A stretch of DNA of 64,000 nt from Carya illinoinensis. Lineage: Eukaryota > Streptophyta > Magnoliopsida > Fagales > Juglandaceae. Position 1 is the stretch's first letter. Each line of letters opens with the position of its first letter. Positions 39,433 to 53,082 of the stretch are shown here, piece by piece. Where the stretch lies: NCBI RefSeq assembly GCF_018687715.1, contig NC_056762.1, positions 23,357,364-23,421,363 on the forward strand, given 5' to 3'. The translations under genes and the position numbers were made by a program. The notes beneath the pieces were generated by a model, which did no database searches, was not told where the DNA came from, and saw nothing but the letters and a program-made list of their open reading frames with translations.

Positions 39433-40882
39433 TGATTGAGCTTAAATATTGCATATTTTATACATTTAGAACCAAAATATTTTATTTATTTTATTACATT
39501 TTTATTGGTTTTATATAAAAAAAATGTTAAGATGAATAAATTCGAGTTGTGATTAAATTGGTTAATAGCATGATTTATGATTAATTGTAGAACTCGTGAT
39601 TTAATTGAGCAATCTTTTTTTATATGCACAACATATATTTTATATATATATATTCTATTCTTTTTTATTTTATTTTATTTATCTTTATATGTAGTCATGG
39701 GCCAAAAGAAATAGAGTTTTGAACTTTTAAAAGAGGGGCGGATTCTTTCTTTTTGACTTTGGACGCACGGGACCCTAAAAGATTTCTTTTCTTTGTGGGT
39801 TGATAATCCATGCAGGAGTATTTGTCTCTTGGAATACACATGCTTGAGGGGCCCAGAGGAGGTTTTAAAATTCATTATTTTCATTTGAAAAGTCAATGGC
39901 ATGTTGAACGGATATATATGATGTTGGTATTGGGGACTTCAAGGAGGGCACGAAAACACACATTGGGACTTGGAACAAGGGACGCCGGACATATTTTTCT
40001 CTGGAGTCCAATTCATTCACGTTGCATGAAAGGAAATAAAAGACTTCTTTTTGGTGTAGTCCAGTTCATTCACGCCGCATAGGAATGGAATGACTTTTTC
40101 TCTTGGGTATTTTTTAGCGCCGCATACACTTTTTCTCTTGGGCATTTTTCAGCGCTGCATACACAATTTCTTTTTTGGGCATTAATTCATTCACGCCGCA
40201 CTCATAATTTCTCTCGGGCACTCACTCATGATGTAGCAGCGTCATTGAAGAGCTCCTTGAGGGGTCCAATTACTATTACAGTCTAACCTCCTCCACTGCT
40301 TTCAATCTTCATCTCCATCCATCTGGTTGCTTGTTTTTATTCCCTAATTTTTAATTAATTTCCATTTGAAATTTATAGTGTATTTTTCATATTTTTGACT
40401 GAAAATTTTGGGCATTTTATTTGTTGTTTATTTTATTTTATGTTAGTTAATTTTCTTGTTTATTTAAGTTTCCATTAACTATGCATTATAATTGCATTTT
40501 AGATTGATTAAAGGTTAATTAGGACTTAAATAATTTCAGTTTTATTATTTAATTTTCAAGTTAATTAATGATGATTGTTTAGCTTAGTTGATTTTTTTTA
40601 ATTGTTAATTTCAATTTGTTAGCCTTTTATATTTTATTTCGACACTCAAAAATCTAAAAATATGAATATAGTCTATGACTAGTGCCATTTTTATTTCCAT
40701 TGCACTCTTCCATTCATTATACATACCACCACTTTTGTTTGTGAAACATTTCACCATTTTATAAAAGTTTAGATTTAAACAAGTTTCTCCGAGGAGACGA
40801 TCTAGGAATTTTATTCTTATTTATTACACGACATCCTCCTGCACTTGGGATAGCATTTGTGCTACCATTTTTGAGTGAGTCA
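39433..40882 (+). mobile_element. Solo LTR of an Athila-type element
   Basis: It starts TGATTGAGC and ends TGAGTGAGTCA. It is flanked by the 5-bp direct repeat AGTAC (39428-39432 and 40883-40887). The sequence matches the Athila LTRs at 22700 and 62782 in several blocks, including the start, the TCCTTGAGGGGTCCAATT-like block near 40255 and the end. Absence of any internal region indicates LTR-LTR recombination after insertion. It gives the only complete LTR of this family in the window (1450 bp). Confidence 0.92.
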
Positions 40883-40887
40883 AGTAC

Positions 40888-41345
40888 TACCATGTACTTC
40901 CACAAAAATGGAACTAGATACTGGTTACGTAAGTTTAAAATCCCTTGAAACAACAAAGAGTGAACTCAAACCATTTGAGGTCCAAAAGGGACTATTAAGC
41001 TATGAGGGAGGACCACTTAACCCCCACATGGACCCTAGCCAAAAAGTAGACCCAAAAGTGGGGTTGTCTTGTAATTTAGCTAATATAGTTGCCAACAAGA
41101 AATTAGGTAGGATGCTTGTTGAACTTAACACCAAAAAGTGGAAGACGCTAGCTCGAGGGAGGAACTCAGAAACTGAAGAAATTGAAGGGGTATTTCTAAC
41201 TTATACCTCAAACTATTCCTTACAAGTTGGCAGCAAGAGGAATGGTAAAAGTGTTTCTAATAACAAGGAGTCTGCTCTAAAGAGACTGAGAGGGAAGGAG
41301 AATACTAATGAAAACAGCACCTCTAAGGTAGTGGCTGGTCCCAGC
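40888..41345 (+). pseudogene. LINE ORF1, C-terminal part
   Basis: The open frame that runs from 40875 continues the LINE after the solo LTR. It contains a basic region (KKWKTLARGRNS, then KRNGKSVSN and KRLRGKENTNEN), which is usual between the zinc knuckle and the ORF2 start of DUF4283-type LINEs. It ends at the insertion point of the Tekay-like element, whose LTR then supplies 52 unrelated codons to the computed frame. Confidence 0.7.
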
Positions 41346-43484
41346 TGTGACGCCCCCAAATCCCCACGCCCGAACACGGGAAAATCGAGACGTCCGGATG
41401 GTGACAACCCGGGTCACCATCCCATCGACGGTGCCAAGTGTGTGCAGAAGCAACAAATGTGCACGGAAGAACACGCAGCGGATAACGAAAGTCATAACTA
41501 AGTACCAAAATTGTTCTCAACGTAATACAAGCTGTTTAAAACGTACATAGATAAAATATTACAAAAAAACAAATATAGTTTTAAACAAATATAAAACATA
41601 ACATCAGCAATCCGGCGGAGCCACATCCTCGGGCTCAGCCTCCTCCTCCTCCTCCTCGAACTCTGCACCAAAAGCTACGGAACCAAAAATGGTACCGCAG
41701 GTAAGTAAAACCCAAACACCACCAGATAAAAATACATAGAACTCAAACAACATGGATGCAAGAAAAACCAATGCACATGCCCCGCAAAACCACATTTTTG
41801 CACGCACGCCAAAAACCCATTGGCCCAATAAAAACATAATCTTAAAAACCACGCCTCGCCATTATCCCAGATAATGGCCCAAACCACCATTTTCCCAGAA
41901 AATGGATCAAAAGCCTCAAAATCAAAACTCGCCATTTTCCCAGAAAATGGCCCGCATCCGAAAACCATAAAAACAAACCGGTTATGCATGCACCATGATC
42001 TCCCCTAGGGATCATCCGCACACCCTGGCTCGGTGCCACACCGCAGGTAACGACTATGCATGTGACACCTAAACGAGCAATGCCCAGACTCGCGCCCTGC
42101 GCGTACCTGGCCAGGCCATCCTCTAGCCCTCGCCAGCGAAGGGCCACGGAGTCGGTGAGTAGAGCGATGCCCAGACTCGCGCCCTGCGCATACCTGGCCG
42201 GGCCATCCTCTAGCCCCGCTCCCGTCGTCGCCCAGCGATAACTCAGGGGATGTCACTCAGTATTATCCACTCCCGAGTGACCAGAGGAGCTCCACCGAGA
42301 TAATAACCCATCCCGGCTTGGGCTCGTGAGACACACGCACCCGAAAATCCAATCACGCCAGCAAAACAGGGTTTCTCAAATAAAATAAAATACCCGTGCA
42401 TGCACCATGCAAATGCAATTATCAATGCTCCACAACAAACAACCAACCATAAAACAATAAATCAAGCAACTCCGTCCTCCATCCACCCGACCCCCGAACT
42501 CCTCGGACTCAGTCCGGAATCAACCAACCATCAGATTAATTAATTGAAAGAGCAATATATATTAAAATCTGAAAATAGGGTTTGGAAAATACTTACAGCG
42601 CTATATGGCAATTTTAGAAAACACGCGGCGTTGCAAACGGAGCCGGAAAAGCAACGTCACAGTGAAAATTCACTGTGGCCGTGGGTTGTGAAAAACCCAC
42701 TTTTGAACGGGGACAAACTAGGGCTTGGGATTGATAGGGAATGGTCTAGGGATGGTTGTGAAGCTATTGGAAGTGGTGGTTGGCCGTGGGTGGCGGCGGA
42801 ATCGCCGGAAATAGGCCAGATTTCCCAAAAAGGAAAGCTAGCTCGTAGGAGCTGTTCCGGTGGTCGTTGGAGGCCGAAAATGGGTGGGTTAGGACGGCAA
42901 GGGACCGGTGATGAAGTGGTGAAGAAATGGTGGCCGGAGGTGGAGCGACGGCGGCGGATCGAGCTGAAAACCGTACGGGCTTTGAGGAGCTTTTCCAGCC
43001 AAACGGCCGGCCGGCAGGGGGAGATATTTGGTGGGAAGGTGCGCCAGAGGGAGGGGGTTCAAACGAGACCGGCGGTGAGCCAAACGGTGGCCGGACGGCG
43101 GCGGTCTGGGCTGAAGAAGATTCCGGCCGTGGGTGAGGAGAGAGAAGAGAGAGAGAGACCGGGGGGGGCTCGAGCGGGAAGAGGAAAAAGAAAAAAAAGA
43201 AAAGAAAGAAAAAAGAAAAGAAAGGAAAAAGAAAAAGGAAAAAGAAGAGAAAAAGGAAAAGAGATGTAGGGAAGAGATGAGGTCCAATCCTCATTCCGGG
43301 AAACGAAACTAAACCGCCAAAAAGAGATTAAAACTCACAAAGCAACTTAAAGAAATAAAACACAACCTCAATTAAATTAAAAACCAATTTTAAAACGTAA
43401 ATAAATTAAAATAAATAATTAATATATTAATTAAAATAAAAACAATTATTTCAGCGAAAATACATTCAAAAGCGGGTCATCACA
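41346..43484 (-). repeat. 3' LTR of the Tekay-like element
   Basis: It reads TGTGACGCCCCC...GGGTCATCACA on the plus strand. It contains three near-identical small hairpins at about 41856-41951 (CCATTATCCCAGATAATGG and two of CCATTTTCCCAGAAAATGG), a direct repeat of about 55 bp at 42075 and 42162, and a purine-only tract at 43140-43267. Long frames on both strands (for example 42544-43269 plus) come from this biased composition and are repeated in the other LTR; I do not regard them as genes. Confidence 0.93.
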
Positions 43485-43601: not shown

Positions 43602-44138
43602 TTATTCGAACAAAAACGGGTACTGCTCCCTCATGTCCGCTGCTCGCTCCCAAGAGAAGTCTTGAGCTAACGGATCTCCCCAAGCCACTTTAACCAAAGG
43701 TATCGTCTTGGACCTCAACTGTTGCTCCTTCCAATCCATGATCTGCGACGGAACAACTTCATAAGTGAGATCCGGTTGCAACTGAATACCCGCTGGGTCG
43801 ACGAAGCGTGGTTCTTGCTGTCCAAAGCTCTTCTTCAGGGATGATATGTGGAAAACATCATGAACATCCCCAAAATAATCTGGCAAAGCAACCCTATAGG
43901 CGACGGACCCTACTCTCTCCAAAATCTGAAAAGGGCCGACGTACCTCGGATCTAGCTTCCTCTTCTTACCAAAACGCTTAACACCTCTCATGGGAGAGAC
44001 TTTAAGGTAAACCCAATCACCAACTTCAAACGACAACTCTCTCCTCCTGGTATCAGCGTAACTCTTCTGACGACTCTGAGCTGCCGCCATTTTATGTCTG
44101 ATGATCCGGACTTGGCTTTGCATCTCTTGAATTATTTT
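43602..44138 (-). pseudogene. Integrase C-terminus and chromodomain-like tail
   Basis: The frame continues pol after a one-base shift. It begins with the integrase tail ([61 protein letters not shown]). It ends with a segment (KTIPLVKVAWGD, DFSWERAADMREQYPFLF) that resembles the degenerate chromodomain of Tekay/Del elements, thought to direct integration to heterochromatin. The shift lies in a GGGG run at 44139-44142, where one extra base separates this part from the rest of pol. Confidence 0.85.
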
Positions 44139-46985
44139 GGGGTCCAATTACCCTACTCTCCCCAACTTCATCCCAACACAAGGGCGACCTACACTTTCTC
44201 CCATAAAGAGCTTCATAGGGAGCCATCTGAATGGTCGCATGGAAGCTGTTATTGTATGCAAACTCGATGAGCGGCAAATGGTTTTCCCAACTTCCTTGGA
44301 ATTCCATGACACATGCTCGCAACATGTCTTCCAGGGTCTGAATGGTGCGCTCTAACTGACCGTCTGTCTGCGGGTGATAAGCAGTACTGAACTTCAACTT
44401 AGTACCCAAAGCTGCCTGCAAACTCTTCCAGAACTGCGATGTGAACCTCGGGTCTCGATCCGACACTATACTCTTTGGTATGCCGTGTAGCCGTACTATC
44501 TCTTTGACATACAAACGGGTCAACTTACCCAAAGAGTCGGTGTTATTAACAGGCAGAAAATGAGCACTCTTCGTTAACCGGTCCACAATCACCCAAACAG
44601 AATTCTTCCCACTAGGCGTTCTCGGCAAACCCACTACAAAGTCCATCGTGATGTCATCCCACTTCCACTCAGGAATAGGGAGGGGTTGGAGCATACCTGC
44701 AGGTCTCTGATGCTCGGCCTTTACCTGACGGCATGTGTGACATTTTTCCACATATAAGGCAACGTCCTTCTTCATTCCATCCCACCAGTAATTTTTCTTC
44801 AAGTCCCGATACATCTTTGTACTGCCGGGATGAACTGAATACGGGGCCGCATGAGCTTCCGCCATGATCCGTTCTTTGAAATCCGAGTCCTTAGGGACCA
44901 CTCTGCGATCTCGGAACCGAAGTATCCCATCACTATCCATGCTATAGTGCAACGGGCCTCGAGATTTTCTGACTCTCTTCCTGATGTTCAGCAGCTTCGG
45001 ATCCTTTCTTTGGAGAGTTTTCAATTCTTCAAAATCAGTTACCCGAATATCAAGAACTGAAGAAAAAATCTCTACTTGCTGCGAACTCTCTATAAGGAGC
45101 CTTCTCATCCCACAAAGCAACGACTCCAATTCTGAAAGCTCGGCTTCATTTTCCAAATGCGACTTCCGGCTCAAAGCATCAGCAACTATATTAGCCTTCC
45201 CCGGATGGTACTTGATCTCACACTGATAGTCACTGATTAGCTCCAGCCATCGCCTCTGCCTCATATTCAGATTTTTCTGGGAAAACAAATGCTTCAAACT
45301 CTTGTGATCGGTAAATACCTCGCAAGCTTCCCCATACAAGAAGTGCCGCCAGATCTTGAGGGCAAAAACAATCGCAGCCAATTCTAGATCGTGCGTCGGA
45401 TAATTCTTCTCATGGTCCTTTAGCTGACGAGATGCATAGGCTACAACCCGTCCTTCCTGCATAAGGACACAACCCAAACCGAACTTAGACGCATCACTGA
45501 AGACTACGAATGGCTTATGCGGTTCTGGGAGTGCTAACACTGGTGCCGTTGTCAGCCTGTTCTTTAATTCCTGGAAGCTTCTCTCACATTTCTCTGACCA
45601 AACAAATTCTGTATTCTTCTGAGTCAAAGCTGTGAGAGGTCCGGATAGGCGAGCAAAACTCTCTACAAATCTTCGGTAGTAACCGGCGAGCCCCAAGAAA
45701 CTCCTGACCTCGCGCACTGTAGTCGGGCGCTGCCATGACAAAATGGCTTCTACCTTACTAGGATCAACAGCCACTCCGCCCCGGGAAATTACGTGCCCAA
45801 GGAATTTAACTTCTTCCAACCAGAATTCACACTTGCTTAGCTTGGCGTATAGCTGGTGTTCTCTCAACCTCTCAAGTACTAGACTAAGATGATACACATG
45901 CTCTTCAACATCTCGGGAGTAAATCAGTATATCATTAATAAATACTACCACAAAGGAATCCAGATAAGGTCGAAACACTCGATTCATTAAATCCATGAAC
46001 GCTGCAGGGGCATTAGCTAACCCAAACGGCATCACCTTAAATTCATAATGCCCATACCTCGACCTGAAAGCAGTTTTAGGCACGTCCTGGTCTCTGATTC
46101 TCAGCTGGTAGTATCCCGACCTCAGATCAATCTTAGAGAACACGGCTGCTCCTTGGAGCTGATCAAACAAATCATCTATCCGCGGGAGAGGATATTTATT
46201 TTTGATGGTCACCTTATTCAATTCCCGATAATCAATGCACATACAGAGGGTTCCATCTTTCTTTTTAACAAATAAAACTGGTGCACCCCACGGCGACGTA
46301 CTAGGCTGAATAAATCCCTTCTCTACCAGTTCTTGCAACTGAGTCTTCAACTCTTTTAATTCAGCCGGGGTCATGCGATAAGGAGCTTTATGCACAGGAG
46401 CCGCTCCAGGTTCCAAGTCTATAACAAACTCCATCTCTCGCACAGGGGGTAGTCCGGGCAAGTCATCCACAAACACATCGGGGAATTCTTCCACAACTGG
46501 AATGTCTGCCAAGGACTTCTTCTCAGACGGCGTGGACACCATCTGAACTAAGAATGCATCCGCTGCCCATACAATCTCTCTCATTGCCTGAATCGCCGAT
46601 ATAATCATCGGCTTTTCTTTTAATCTACTCCCCACAAATTCCAGACAATCACCATCTGGAAGCTGAAAGCTAATTATCCGACTTCTGCAATTAATACTCG
46701 CAGAATATCGGAATAGCCAATCCATCCCGAGGATGATGTCAAAGCCCAACAGCTTGACCACCAACAAATCCGCATCCAAGAATCTTCCCTCAAAATTTAA
46801 CGGGCATCCCAAAGCAACCTTGGAACACCACACCATCTCACCATCGGGTAGAGCCACTACCATAGACTTCGGCAACGGCTCCGTGACCAAATTACACACT
46901 CGAGCAAACGTGGAAGATACAAACGACCGTGAAGCACCGGAATCAAACAAAGTACAAGCATAAAACTCATACAAACGGACTCTTC
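44139..46985 (-). pseudogene. pol: protease, reverse transcriptase, RNase H and integrase of the Tekay-like element
   Basis: One frame of about 950 codons covers protease ([15 protein letters not shown], aspartate intact), reverse transcriptase ([44 protein letters not shown]), RNase H ([35 protein letters not shown]) and integrase (zinc finger ending KCHTCRQVK; catalytic [31 protein letters not shown]). The reverse transcriptase active site reads FINDILIYS: codon 45934-45936 is AAT where the family has an aspartate. The computed frame starts at 47037, but its first 17 codons lie in the putative intron; the coding part should start at 46985 by splicing. Confidence 0.92.
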
Positions 46986-47080
46986 CTGAACCAAACACAT
47001 CAACCCATGAAATCCAAAAAGCGAAGAATAACCACAAACACCAAAAATTAAATCCAACTTAAAATTAAATTAAACCATAC
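46986..47080 (-). other. Putative 95-bp spliceosomal intron between gag and protease
   Basis: On the minus strand the segment begins GTATGG after ACAG and ends TTTGGTTCAG before GAAGAG. It is about half T, as plant introns are, and has a branch-site-like GTTGATG about 18 bases before the end. Its length is not a multiple of three. Removing it joins GVITG in the gag frame directly to [16 protein letters not shown] in the pol frame, restoring the usual ITG-V-LY-YA spacing of this family. Unspliced, gag ends three codons beyond the donor at TAA. Confidence 0.75.
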
Positions 47081-47081
47081 C

Positions 47082-48312
47082 TGTAATTACTCCAACATCA
47101 TGGGTCGCTGGTGCCTCATCATCCACCTCTCCGGGTGTGACAGCATAAACCCGGGCTTGCACTGTTTGTGTCGGGTTTGTTCTTCCACCGCGTCCACTTC
47201 CACGGCTTCCTTGAGCTGCTCTTGGACATTCTCGGGCAAAGTGACCCTGCTGGCCAAAATTATAACATCGAGCCCCACCAGAAGGGCACTCACCCACATG
47301 GGCTCTATTACAAACTCCGCATATAGGCACACGTCCTCCCATGCGAACACTTGAGGATGCTTGCGGTTGAGTCCCGGTCCGCTGAACAAATTTCTGAGTC
47401 GAACCCGAGCTGCTTCCTTCACCAGAAAAACTCTGCCTCTTATGCCCTGGAGGGGAGCCCATACTCAGATTGTTTTCTCGTTCCACCAGGGTGGCCACAT
47501 CCACTAATTCCTGTAAAAGTGGATATCCGATGGCTGACCACCATACGGCGTATATCAGGGCGCAATCCCTCCTAAAAACGATCAGCTCGCATCTCCTCTG
47601 TGGCGATAAGGTGAGGAGCAAATCGCTCAAGTTCGATGAACCTCCGAGCGTATTGTTCCACTGTCCCGCCCCCTTGGACCAGATTGGAGAACTCTCTTGC
47701 CTTTTGCTTCCTTACCGATGCGGGAAAGAAGTGGTCATTGAACTCCTTCTTGAAACGCTGCCAGGTCACCGCAGCGAAAGATCCCAGTTCAGATTCCAAC
47801 AGCACCCTCTTGGTATCCCACCAATCAGAAGCGGTACCTTGCAAGAGATAGCTGGCGTAGAGTACTTGCTGTGCCTCAGTGCATCCACACACCTCAAAAG
47901 TTTTCTCCAAATCTTTGATCCATTTTCCAGCCTGAAGTAGATCCTCATTTCCAGTGAAGTGTGGAGTCCTATGCGCCAGGAAACGCTCATAGGTGCATCC
48001 GGCTTGCACCATGCTACTGGACCCTCCTGGATACATCCAAGGCCCTCCCTGATATGGCCAAGGACCTCCTGGTTGTGGCCAAAACCCTCCTTGTTGCGGA
48101 CAAGGCTCTCCTGACGATGGATAAGGTCCTCCTGATGGTGGCCAAGGACCCCCTTGTTGTGGCCAAGGTCCTTGTGGTGGCCAAGGCCCTGTCTGTTGAG
48201 ACCTCGCACTCTGCTGCATAAATTCCGTCATCTGCCGTATTGCTTCGGCTAGGGAGTCATCCCTGGAGGTATTGTCCCGTGGCTCCTGAGTATTTTTCCT
48301 TGGTCTCCCCAT
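47082..48312 (-). pseudogene. gag of the Tekay-like element (stop plus frameshift)
   Basis: The preferred start is ATG at 48312 (MGRPRKNTQEPRDN); the longer frame above it is hydrophobic and lies in the leader. Residues 35-85 are a run of GPWPxQG-like repeats. The retrotransposon-gag core follows (DLEKTFEVCG, YLLQGTASDWWDTKR, FNDHFFPASVRKQKAREF). A TAG at about 47573 replaces a glutamine, and one extra G near 47515 shifts the frame before ELVDVATLVERENN. The knuckle near 47260 reads CYNFGQQGHFAREC, with phenylalanine in place of the second cysteine. The protein would coat element RNA. Confidence 0.88.
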
Positions 48313-48575
48313 ATTCCTACCACAACACCACTCTTGACCCTCCTTTAAGAAAACAAATAAAACCATCATAAAACCAACAAAAACAAAACCACACCCCACA
48401 GCAAGAAACAAAAGAACCCAGCTTGCAAAAACATAACCAAATAAATACAAACAAACAAACAAGCTCCAACAAATAAAACAAATAAAACAACTGTACTTAA
48501 CATAATTTTTAAAACATAACTTTAAAAAGCATCCTGGTACTGCCTACGGGACATGTGGTTTTACCCAGAGCCAAA

Positions 48576-48591
48576 CCGCTGTGATATCACC
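48576..48591 (-). promoter_or_regulatory. Primer-binding site, initiator tRNA-Met type (diverged)
   Basis: Next to the 5' LTR the minus strand reads GGTGATATCACAGCGG. It resembles the usual tRNA-iMet site TGGTATCAGAGC of chromoviruses with a few differences. Confidence 0.65.
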
Positions 48592-50729
48592 TGTGACGCC
48601 CCCAAATCCCCACGCCCGAACACGGGGAAATCAAGACGTCCGGATGGTGACAACCCGGGTCACCATCCCATCGACGGTGCCAAGTGTGTGCAGAAGCAAC
48701 AAATGTGCACGGAAGAACATGCAGCGGATAACGAAAGTCATAACTAAGTACCAGAATTGTTCTCAACGTAATACAAGCTGTTTAAAACGTACATAGATAA
48801 AATATTACAAAAACACAAATACAGTTTTAAACAAATATAAAACAAAACATCAGCAACCCGGCGGAGTCGCATCCTCGGACTCAGCCTCCTCCTCCTCCTC
48901 CTCGAACTCTGCACCAAAAGCTATGGAACCAAAAATGGTACCGCAGGTAAGTAAAACCCAAACACCACCAGATAAAAACACATAGAACTCAAACAACATG
49001 GATGCAAGAAAAACCAATGCACAGGCCCCGCAAAGCCACATTTTTGCACGCACGCCAAAAACCCATTGGCCCAATAAAAACATAATCTTAAAAACCACGC
49101 CTCGCCATTATCCCAGATAATGGCCCAAACCACCATTTTCCCAGAAAATGGATCAAAAGCCTCAAAACCAAAACTCGCCATTTTCCCAGAAAATGGCCCG
49201 CATCCGAAAACCATAAAAACAAACCGGTTATGCATGCACCATGATCTCCCCTAGGGATCATCCGTACACCCTGGCTCGGTGCCACACCGCAGGTAACGAC
49301 TACGCATGTGACACCTAAACGAGCAATGCCTAGACTCGCGCCCTGCGCGTATCTGGCCAGGCCATCCTCTAGCCCTCGCCAGTGAAGGGTCACAGAGTCG
49401 GTGAGTAGAGCGATGCCCAGACTCGCGCCCTGCGCGTACCTGGCCGGGCCATCCTCTAGCCCCGCTCCCGTCGTCGCCCAGTGACAACTCAGGGGACGTC
49501 ACTCAGTATTATCCACTCCCGAGTGACCAGAGGAGCTCCATCGAGATAATAACCCATCCCGGCTTGGGCTCGTGAGACACACGCACCCGAAAATCCATTC
49601 ACGCCAGCAAAACAGGGTCTCTCAAATAAAATAAAATACCCGTGCATGCACCATGCAAATGCAATTATCAATGCTCCACAACAAACAACCAACCATAAAA
49701 CAATAAATCAAGCAACTCCGTCCTCCATCCACCCGACCCCCGAACTCCTCGGACTCAGTCCGGAATCAACCAACCAGTAGATTAATTAATTGAAAGAGCA
49801 ATATATATTTAAATCTGAAAATAGGGTTTGGAAAATACTTACAGCGCTATATGGCAATTTTAGAAAACACGCGGCATTGCAAACGGTGCCGGAAAAGCAA
49901 CGTCACAGTGAAAATTCACTGTGGCCGTGGGTTGTGAAAAACCCACTTTTGAACGGGGACAAACTAGGGCTTGGGATTGATAGGGAATGGTCTAGGGATG
50001 GTTGTGAAGCTATTGGAAGTGGTGGTTGGCCGTGGGTGGCGGCGGAATCGCCGGAAATAGGCCAGATTTCCCAAAAAGGAAAGCTAGCTCGTAGGAGCTG
50101 TTCCAGTGGTCGTTGGAGGCCGAAAATGGGTGATTTAGGACGGCAAGGGACCGGTGATGAAGTGGTGAAGAAATGGTGGCCGGAGGTGGAGCGACGGCGG
50201 CGGATCGAGCTGAAAACCGTACGGGCTTTGAGGAGCTTTTCCAGCCAAACGGCCGGCCGGCAGGGGGAGATATTTGGTGGGAAGGTGCGCCGGAGGGAGG
50301 GGGTTCGAACGAGACCGGCGGTGAGCCAAACAGTGGCTGGACGGCGGCGGTCTGGGCTGAAGAAGATTCCGGCCGTGGGTGAGGAGAGAGAAGAGAGAGA
50401 GAGATCGGGGGGGCTCGAGCGGGAAGAGGAAAAAGAAAAAAAAGAAAAGAAAGAAAAAAGAAAAGAAAGGAAAAAGAAAAAGGAAAAAGAAGAGAAAAAG
50501 GAAAAGAGATGTAGGGAAGAGATGAGGTCCAATCCTCATTCCGGGAAACGAAACTAAACCGCCAAAAAGAGATTAAAACTCACAAAGCAACTTAAAGAAA
50601 TAAAACACAACCTCAATTAAATTAAAAACCAATTTTAAAACGTAAATAAATTAAAATAAATAACTAATATATTAATTAAAATAAAAACAATTATTTCAGC
50701 GAAAATACACTCAAAAGCAGGTCATCACA
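48592..50729 (-). repeat. 5' LTR of the Tekay-like element
   Basis: It is the near-identical partner of 41346-43484, including the three small hairpins (about 49104-49200), the direct repeat and the purine tract. Transcription of the element would start within it on the minus strand. A TATA box could not be chosen with confidence. Confidence 0.93.
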
Positions 50730-50734
50730 CCAGC

Positions 50735-51768
50735 CCTACGAACACTAATGAATATCCTAGCTTGGAATTGTTAAGGGCTTGGAAACCCTCGGACAGTTAG
50801 ATTCCTTAACCTCTTAGTTAAGGATAAGTGCCCAACAATGATTTTTCTCATGGAAACAAAATGTTCGAATGCAAGAATAGAGAAAGTTTGTAGTAGGTTG
50901 AAATTCGAGGCATGCCTAGTTGTAAACAATAGAGGAAGCAGTGGGGGTCTTGCATTAATGTGGAAAACAAGTGCAAATGTAACCATACATAATTCTTCAA
51001 GTTGGCACATTAGTGCATATGTAGCAATAGCAAGGGAACAACCATGGCTCTTCATGGGTTTCTATGGCCATCCAGAGACCTCAAAGAGGCACTTAAGTTG
51101 GGAGTTCCTCAAATATCTCAAACCAGCAACCAATACACCTTGGATCTACTCTGGAGACTTTAATGAGATTGTTTGCTAGGCAAAGAAGAAGGGAGGTGGT
51201 CCCAGACCCTATAAACAGATGGAAGCTTTCAAGACCACACTATAGTGGTGTAATTTGAACTTAGTTTTTACCAAGGGCCTAAATTCACTTGGGCTGACAA
51301 TAGAAGTGTGCCATGCTTTACCAAAGAAAGGCTAGATCGAGCCCTTGCCAATCCAGAATGGTTGTAAGAGTTTAATGATTCTTGTTGTAGGGTACTTCCA
51401 ACTTTAACTTCAGACCACTCTCCCCTACTTATATGCATTGGCCCTCACCAAGGGCAATCAAGTGTTAGAACTAAGTATTTCAGATTTGAAGCATCTTGGT
51501 CTTTGAAAGCAAATTGTGCCACAATAGTTCAAGAAGCTTGGACAAAACCTACATATGGGTACGCTCCTTCTGAGATTATGAGGAAAAGATTAATACGCTG
51601 TGGGGCTGAGCTACATAAGTGGAATGGGAGATCAACAAAAGAGCCCCAAATGACATAAGGCAGAAACTAAGGAGAATGGGTGAGTTGCAAGGAGTAGGTA
51701 GTAGGGATCATGTGGAAGCTGTCAAAAGGTTGCAAAGTGAAATTGATTAGACACCTGCTGAGGATGAA
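50735..51768 (+). pseudogene. LINE ORF2: endonuclease domain
   Basis: ORF2 probably starts with ATG at 50748, giving MNILAWNC, a stop, then GLGNPRTVRFLNLL, the usual start of the apurinic-endonuclease-like domain of plant LINEs. Further motifs are FLMETKCSN, GGLALMW, WLFMGFYGHP and the catalytic-loop-like SGDFNEIV, followed by TAG at 51177-51179. The rest of the domain is readable only across several frames (KERLDRALANPEW near 51325, SDHSPL near 51415). The enzyme would nick target DNA to prime reverse transcription. Confidence 0.82.
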
Positions 51769-53082
51769 TTGAGGTGGAAACAAAGAGCCAAACAATATTG
51801 GCTACAGAAAGGGGACAGGAAGACAACCTTTTACCATTTTCATGCCTCACACAGAAGGAAAGTTAATAAAATCTCACAAATTCTGGATCATAGGAGCATA
51901 ATGGTGTCTGGAAAGGAGCAAATAGGAGCCGTTTTTACAAGATTTTTCTCAGATCTATTCACCTTCTCCTCTCCTACTAGAATTGAAGACTGTATAAAGG
52001 ACATGCCTAAAAAAGTAATAGCAAGCATGAATGCTTTTTTGGTCCAAAGGTTTGATAAAGCTGAAGTTAAAAGTGTTGTTTTACAAATGAAAGGGATGGG
52101 ATCCCCAGGGCCAGATGGCTTTCCAGCCCTTTTCTACCAATCAAATTGGGACATTACAACCAAGGAAGTGACAACCTTTGTACTAAACATCCTCAACACA
52201 ACAGGTTCATTGGAAGGGGTAAAGGATACATATATATCCTTGATTCCAAAAGTAAAAAATCCGACAAAAGTTTATGATTTCAGGCCTATTAGTCTATGCG
52301 ATGTAATTTATAAAATTGTAGCAAAAGTGATATCCAATAGACTTAAAACTAAGTTGCTTGACATAATCTCTTTGAACCAAAGTGCATTTGTTCCAGGTAA
52401 AGCTATAACAGACAACATCTTGGTGGCCTATGAGACCCTTCATATTATGTCCACAAGAATGCAAGGCAAGATAACTTACATGGCATTAAAACTCAACATG
52501 AGCAAGGCTTATGATCGAGTGGAATGGACTTTTCTATCCTTTGTAATGTGCAAGATGGGATTTGACAGAAGGTGGACAACCCTTGTGATGAACCGCCTCA
52601 CCTTTGTCACCTATTCAATTTTACTTAATGGAGAAGCTCAGGACAGGTTTAAGCCAACTCGTGGACTAAAGCAGGGGGATCCTTTGCAGTCCCCCTTCCT
52701 ATTTATCATCTGTATAGAAGCCTTTCCAAATTTATTGTCTCAGGCAAAGATGAATGGCAAGCTTTCAAGTATACCAATGGGAATTAAAGTCAACCACTTG
52801 TTTTTCGTTGATGACAGCTTGCTATTCTACAAGGAAAACACCCATGAATGGAGGAGACTTATGAACATCCTGAATTCCTATGAGCAAGCCTTGGGTGAAC
52901 TGTTAAATAAAGAAAAGTCATCCATTTATTTTAGCAGAAATACACCCTCTGATAGAAGATCTCGCATCCTTCGAATTGCAGGAGTCACCACCACAGGATC
53001 TTTTGAGAGGTACTTAGGCTTACCTACCATGGTGCGAAGAGCAATGGTGACTTACTTCCATGGATTGATTGACAAAACATGA
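51769..53082 (+). pseudogene. LINE ORF2: reverse transcriptase domain, open for 437 codons
   Basis: The block carries all standard LINE reverse transcriptase motifs: GPDGFPALFYQ, LIPKVKNP, DFRPISLCDVIYKI, NQSAFVPGKAITDNILVAYE, KQGDPLQSPFLFI, and motif C as FFVDDSLLF with both aspartates kept. Motif A reads ALKLNMSKAYDRVEW; the first aspartate of the family is asparagine (codon 52495-52497, AAC), which should abolish catalysis. Upstream and downstream parts of ORF2 are broken, so this is not an active gene despite the long open frame. Confidence 0.88.

Follow-up and report, generated by a model that had tools for sequence, protein, structure and literature searches.

An Ogre-like split of gag and pol in a Tekay-like chromovirus of pecan, probably gained independently at a new place, by what is very probably a real intron

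The window, that is, the whole 64,000-nt stretch of pecan (Carya illinoinensis) DNA that was analysed, holds an LTR retrotransposon on the minus strand that retains both LTRs and is internally damaged. Its parts, in the element's own direction, are as follows.

50730..50734, no strand: target-site duplication CCAGC, beside the 5' LTR
48592..50729, minus strand: 5' LTR, 97.76% identical to the 3' LTR in an LTR-LTR comparison
48578..48591, minus strand: primer-binding site, adjoining the 5' LTR, reading TGATATCACAGC in the window copy
47572..48543, minus strand: 5' part of gag, with a Pfam match to Retrotrans_gag (PF03732); a stop-to-stop stretch in a different frame from the 3' part of gag
47073..47711, minus strand: 3' part of gag, with the tail ...VYAVTPGEVDDEAPATHDVGVITG, ending three codons beyond the donor
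46986..47080, minus strand: putative intron between gag and protease, with donor CAG/GTATGG at 47080, acceptor TTCAG/G at 46986 and, if unspliced, an in-frame TAA at 47072-47070
44092..46985, minus strand: pol frame downstream of the acceptor, with Pfam matches to protease (RVP_2), RT, RNase H, integrase H2C2 and rve
43602..44147, minus strand: integrase C-terminus with SH3_Tf2-1 and a chromodomain-like tail, in another frame than pol in the window copy
41346..43484, minus strand: 3' LTR, the pair of 48592..50729
41341..41345, no strand: target-site duplication CCAGC, beside the 3' LTR

The Pfam matches run in the order Retrotrans_gag, RVP_2, RVT_1, RNase H, integrase and SH3_Tf2-1, which is that of chromoviruses, and the arrangement GAG-PROT-RT-RH-INT, with LTRs and a target-site duplication, is the one expected of the chromovirus clade Tekay (Del). 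We take the element to belong to this clade from the appearance of gag, protease and the C-terminus. The rve match falls slightly below the curated Pfam cut-off. The chromodomain model PF00385 gave no match to the window element even at E up to 5; the element's C-terminus aligns at 48% identity with the end of P0068, for which PF00385 is listed. Gag probably starts at MGRPRKN near 48311 in the window copy and is broken across two frames around 47572-47711, and its 3' part (47073..47711) has no Pfam match. The pol frame stops at 44092, and the C-terminus of integrase carries on in another frame. A tandem repeat rich in proline and glycine in the 5' half of gag varies in unit number, with gaps of about 18 and 21 nt in many of the copies L048-L097. 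In five other copies for which it was printed, the primer-binding site reads TGGTATCAGAGC or is near to it, and it presumably corresponds to tRNA-iMet.

Between the primer site and gag, the 5' leader (window 48340-48540) is very T-rich, with a T fraction of up to 0.61 in 95-bp windows. A second intron in this leader was considered and rejected, since, small gaps aside, the leader is retained in 50 copies that lack the gag-protease segment and was not lost alongside it. Just past the 5' LTR lies an ORF for a LINE-like reverse transcriptase (window 50775-53082, plus strand; RVT_1 in 51751-53082), and the plus-strand ORFs at 50775-51179 and 40875-41501 have no Pfam match. The LTR element may sit inside a LINE, with CCAGC as its target-site duplication.

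The feature that concerns us is the segment between gag and protease. An earlier note on this DNA, made from the letters themselves, had described a T-rich stretch of 95 nt with the borders CAG/GTATGG and TTCAG/G, and exactly this lies at window 47080..46986 on the minus strand. Its T content is 54%, compared with 17% in the preceding 100 nt and 44% in the following 100 nt. The same note had gag stopping three codons past the donor; the unspliced gag frame does read GGT ATG GTT TAA, and the unspliced Gag reading ends ...GVITGMV. Removal of the segment was also said to restore conserved residues on both sides, and the joined reading through ...GVITG aligns by eye, free of gaps, with relatives that have no segment. 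The claim that removal joins two different reading frames needs to be narrowed. It is true of the window copy and of five others, in which the segment is 95 nt long (6 of the 40 copies sampled), and untrue of the other 34 of 40, in which it is 96 nt long and gag and pol are in frame. The window copy is a 1-nt deletion variant of the usual 96-nt segment.

The sample of 40 was drawn from a search of the pecan genome (674 Mb, 17 contigs) with a 251-bp query and consists of the best-matching scored copies among 2,024 first-look candidates; these are 98-100% identical and, being the best matches to the window, are biased toward it and not random. The segment and its splice borders proved to be common to the family: all 40 best-matching copies carry the segment, with GT in 39/40 and AG in 40/40. 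Only L043 has lost the GT, and the acceptor of L034 reads TTTAG. The in-frame TAA three codons past the donor is kept in 40/40. Segment length is 96 nt in 34 copies and 95 nt in six; gag and pol share a frame interrupted by one stop in 33/40 (33 of the 34 copies with 96 nt), share a frame with two stops in 1/40 (L042), and stand in different frames in 6/40. In 31 of the 40, the last 140 gag codons and the first 200 pol codons are both open as they stand. Because the usual length keeps gag and pol in frame, readthrough of the stop codon enters as a rival explanation, which is weighed below.

The exon-donor and the exon-exon junction were searched for across the whole genome with 27-nt patterns, at most three mismatches each, and a reversed-pattern control. 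The exon-donor junction was found at 1,458 sites, and its control at none. The possibility that relatives are continuous at this position and that the window copy alone carries an insertion is excluded by these 1,458 sites, by a second pecan family (five of five copies read) and by some walnut proteins. No relatives were found in viral contigs. At the level of sequence, the segment has what a U2-type intron should have, namely GT...AG borders that are kept, a T-rich body and a reading frame that is preserved upon removal.

Copies that lack the segment at exactly the predicted join, which the earlier note had suggested looking for, do exist. They occupy 88 genome sites, 16 of them perfect matches to the 27-nt pattern (at most three mismatches allowed; control 0). 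Exact absence thus accounts for about 6% (88/1,546) of the sites found with both junction patterns, and about 94% keep the intron. We fetched 56 of the 88 intronless loci. A primer-site-like sequence is present in 30 of the 50 checked; consequently, at least these are LTR-primed copies.

With 47 intronless copies and 40 that bear the intron in one tree, the presence or absence of the intron changes at least 16 times, five of these changes being forced by starred branches. A single intronless clade is rejected, at a cost of 586 log units (AU p ~1e-104). When six more intronless copies were added, the count stayed at 16, with 12 changes for the gag part alone (93 rows) and 14 for the pol part alone (89 rows, after omission of four of the 93 with little pol sequence). 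Three intronless copies, L076, L079 and L084, were included in an earlier tree and omitted from later ones, since downstream of the junction, further into pol, they match the family poorly; they may be recombinants with other elements or carry nested insertions. By the tree, the intronless copies of this family (hereafter family 1) arose more than once. The 16 changes should not be equated with 16 independent splicing events, since the intronless state could also spread by template switching between RNAs packaged together. For 12 of the 47 intronless copies, an intron-bearing partner lies less than 2.7% away, and divergence within 150 bp of the junction (83/3,588, 2.31%) is equal to that further out (481/20,389, 2.36%), which leaves no visibly imported block in these 12 pairs. 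The sample holds no intron-bearing partner for the most divergent intronless lineages.

Some intronless copies have multiplied: the haplotype AATCACAGG is common to 38 of the 88 intronless sites by hand count, not all of them in one clade, and one clade comprises 14 sampled copies (e.g., L070, L071, L073, L077, L080-L083, L091 and L093-L096). Mobilisation, at least in trans, consequently does not strictly require the intron, and intronless copies can be mobilised, perhaps in trans. Members of this group would make the fused reading only, which raises the question of help in trans. Exact loss in retrocopies, as would be expected of a U2-type intron, was found at the 88 family-1 sites and at one site in the second family, with a control of 0, the 4-nt microhomology at the family-1 borders being a caveat. 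The intronless copies look like reverse transcripts of spliced RNA, and their exactness suggests this strongly.

The second pecan family was reached via P0050, a pecan protein with 54% identity in PR-RT. It carries a T-rich segment, GACTG/GTATT...TTTAG/GAAGG, at the same codon and in the same phase as in family 1 in all five copies read, with lengths of 117, 117, 117, 95 and 99 nt; the exon side of the donor reads CTGACTG or ATGACTG. By eye, the segment's sequence is unlike that of family 1, and the repeat at its borders is only GG, whereas family 1 has CAGG. Genome searches returned 111 intron-bearing sites and one exact intronless site (one mismatch), with controls of 0. The intronless copy is old and has several stops. 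The pecan protein P0131 joins exactly at the family-2 point. In two of the five copies read (L104 and L105), the insert has no in-frame stop, and a Gag-only reading therefore does not apply throughout family 2. Poly-T tracts and intron length vary among L104-L108, and the unspliced reading accordingly continues into pol in some of these copies and not in others.

Beyond pecan, the record consists of proteins. Among the walnut proteins P0011-P0019, eight of nine run straight across the predicted join, with RVR coming after VITG (VITD in P0014). P0019 carries 28 additional residues, of which the last four, FASG, stand at the same border. Residues consistent with an insert up to that border also occur in P0030 and in two metagenome proteins, P0001 and P0004. 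Those walnut proteins that run across the join could derive from copies lacking the intron, or gene prediction may have supplied an intron; they are no proof of splicing. No insert is seen at the gag-protease point in P0065 and P0110 (metagenome, 1,491 aa each) or in Fagus and melon proteins; wherever such a protein is a gene model, prediction may have removed an intron. For a PR-RT protein tree, 102 rows were thinned to 60, and absence of the insert was read only in rows showing the junction. The eight Juglandaceae rows form one clade (98*), and its closest relatives with a readable junction are without the insert. The intron probably arose on the stem of the Juglandaceae element clade, since its position is common to two pecan families and, by protein readings, to their walnut relatives. 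One gain on that stem is the simplest history. The intron has since diverged in sequence and length.

The explanation that we prefer, with a probability of roughly 83%, is that a high-copy Tekay-type chromovirus of pecan has a genuine GT-AG intron in its gag-pol region, with unspliced RNA giving Gag, spliced RNA giving Gag-Pol, and occasional retrocopying of the spliced form. Unspliced RNA would be the genome that is normally copied and, upon translation, would yield a Gag ending three codons beyond the donor. Removal of the intron by host splicing would create a continuous reading of gag, protease, RT and integrase, and thereby Gag-Pol. Splicing would be partial, which would set the ratio of the two products, and now and then a spliced RNA would be reverse transcribed to leave an exact intronless copy. 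The parts of this explanation are not equally firm. The exact losses, repeated in family 1 and found once in family 2, strongly suggest that splicing occurs. The kept stop, the retention of the intron at about 94% of the sites found despite irreversible losses, and the known cases discussed below argue with moderate strength that the element sets its protein ratios by retaining or splicing the intron, and less so in family 2. Thus, where the earlier note had proposed that splicing controls Gag versus Gag-Pol, its intron is supported by conserved borders, 88 exact losses and a second family, while control of the ratio is still something that we infer.

The alternative that survives best, although we judge it unlikely, accepts a real and efficiently spliced intron and denies it a role in the ratio. 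Spliced RNA would be translated, a separate unspliced pool would be packaged, and the intron would be a neutral passenger or an aid to export. There is a precedent for such a division in BARE, which translates and replicates from distinct RNA pools (PMC3735527, excerpt), and the two family-2 copies with an open insert have no Gag-terminating stop in it. However, the early in-frame stop is kept in every one of the 40 family-1 copies. Retention at most sites, when losses recur and are irreversible, fits an advantage of the intron, although rare copying of spliced RNA would look alike.

A different view of the intronless copies would make them an ancestral lineage that predates the insertion, mixed into the tree by recombination of intron-bearing and intronless RNAs. 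Recombination is common in such elements, and the sample contains several divergent pecan lineages in which every copy lacks the intron (10 rows to one side of a midpoint root). We nevertheless hold this history to be improbable. The insert stands at the same codon and phase in the second pecan family, as it does in walnut judging by protein readings, and thus appears older than the family; in addition, the one-clade test was rejected and flank divergence near the junction is not raised in the 12 pairs.

Programmed readthrough of the stop codon is, in our assessment, very improbable. It would treat gag and pol as one frame broken by the TAA, with the segment as a linker, much as murine leukaemia virus has gag and pol in one frame and reads through a stop. 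The length of 96 nt with a shared frame in 34/40, the single in-frame stop in 33/34 and the TAA kept in 40/40 are all compatible with it. However, exact removal at GT...AG borders at 88 sites is left unexplained. The window copy, L009 and L028 have the 95-nt segment, in which the linker would be out of frame, yet they group in a single small clade (100*), which means that their common ancestor was able to transpose, possibly with help in trans. Within the segment, polymorphic sites are spread evenly over the codon positions (6/8/5; few sites), compared with 56/51/87 in pol, and family 2 has, by eye, unrelated sequence and other lengths at the same place. Nor do we know of TAA TTT AAT among plant readthrough contexts.

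We give just as little credence to the idea that the intronless copies are deletions between the CAGG repeats at the borders, made by slippage during replication or reverse transcription. CAG/G does stand at both borders, and this 4-nt microhomology would yield the identical product. Against this, the flanks of one reference copy contain 293 direct-repeat pairs of at least 4 nt at a spacing of 80-124 (105 in 800 nt and 188 in 1200 nt), and none of these has been used in the 40 intron-bearing copies. The five flank deletions of at least 10 nt in those copies (21-64 nt) are all private. The recurrent gaps observed fall in the proline-rich tandem repeat upstream in gag, whereas the segment is no tandem repeat, and in family 2, an exact loss occurred with only GG in common at the borders. 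Finally, plain frameshifting between gag and pol in the window copy is rejected because the open stretches do not overlap (the gag frame runs to its stop at 47070, and the pol frame is open from 47058 on), and a restart at an internal ATG is judged unlikely because the first pol-frame Met of that copy comes after the DSGA motif of the protease.

Tekay elements in particular have one ORF, and how one-ORF plant chromoviruses produce an excess of Gag is, to our knowledge, an open question. A single ORF is encoded by most plant groups of LTR elements (PMC6317226, excerpt). According to a 2025 review, excess Gag is mainly obtained in one of two ways, by frameshifting or from a short Gag RNA, and plant LTR elements are generally without introns, with Ogre and EVADE as notable exceptions (PMC12786077, excerpt). 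Among the matches listed in the literature searched, and as far as their excerpts extend, we found no description of a Tekay-type element with an intron between gag and pol. A retroelement that replicates by way of RNA should shed introns fast, so an intron that is kept points to use. In the pecan element, the gag-pol switch is predicted to the nucleotide, and relatives with and without the intron coexist. Because the two stand side by side, genomes by themselves allow the rate of loss, the packaging of spliced RNA and selection for the intron to be measured. We lean toward the view that a Tekay-type chromovirus of the walnut family independently evolved a spliceosomal intron as a switch between Gag and Gag-Pol and that this intron was already in place, and has been retained, when the two pecan families split, with spliced genomes leaking into copies that mostly fail to multiply. 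If true, this would be a natural, long-running experiment on why retroelements retain an intron that reverse transcription can delete at any time.

Several known elements bear comparison. The centromeric CRR retrotransposons of rice belong to the CRM clade of chromoviruses. They are gypsy elements with spliced transcripts, as is proposed for the pecan element, but their splicing removes rt and creates two ORFs, with no gag/pol split (PMC3735527, excerpt). Bianca has two ORFs set apart by a stretch averaging 172 bp; unlike the pecan element, it belongs to Ty1/copia, and no splicing is reported for it in the excerpt of that source (PMC6317226).

Closer in position are two elements in which splicing takes place near the boundary of gag and protease. 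BARE1, a Ty1/copia element of barley, has a U-rich intron of 104 nt near this boundary, with borders (CAG/GTAT...CAG/GA) like those in pecan, and its spliced form reaches a stop three amino acids beyond the end of Gag (PMC3735527, excerpt). In EVADE of Arabidopsis, alternative splicing near the boundary sets the output of Gag (PMC12786077, excerpt). The pecan element would be their mirror image. In BARE1 and EVADE, the spliced message is Gag-only and the unspliced message gives Gag-Pol, whereas in pecan, it is the unspliced reading that ends in Gag; the superfamily differs as well.

The closest parallel in mechanism is Ogre, some of whose transcripts lose an intron lying between PROT and RT (PMC6317226, excerpt). 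The pecan element would work alike without sharing Ogre's intron position. Ogre belongs to the Tat lineage of non-chromovirus Ty3/gypsy elements and has its intron between PROT and RT; the pecan intron lies between GAG and PROT, measures 95-117 nt in the copies read, and is found in an element that groups with insert-less relatives. What we describe is very probably a real intron, and with it an Ogre-like split of gag and pol that a Tekay-like chromovirus would have gained independently and at a new place.
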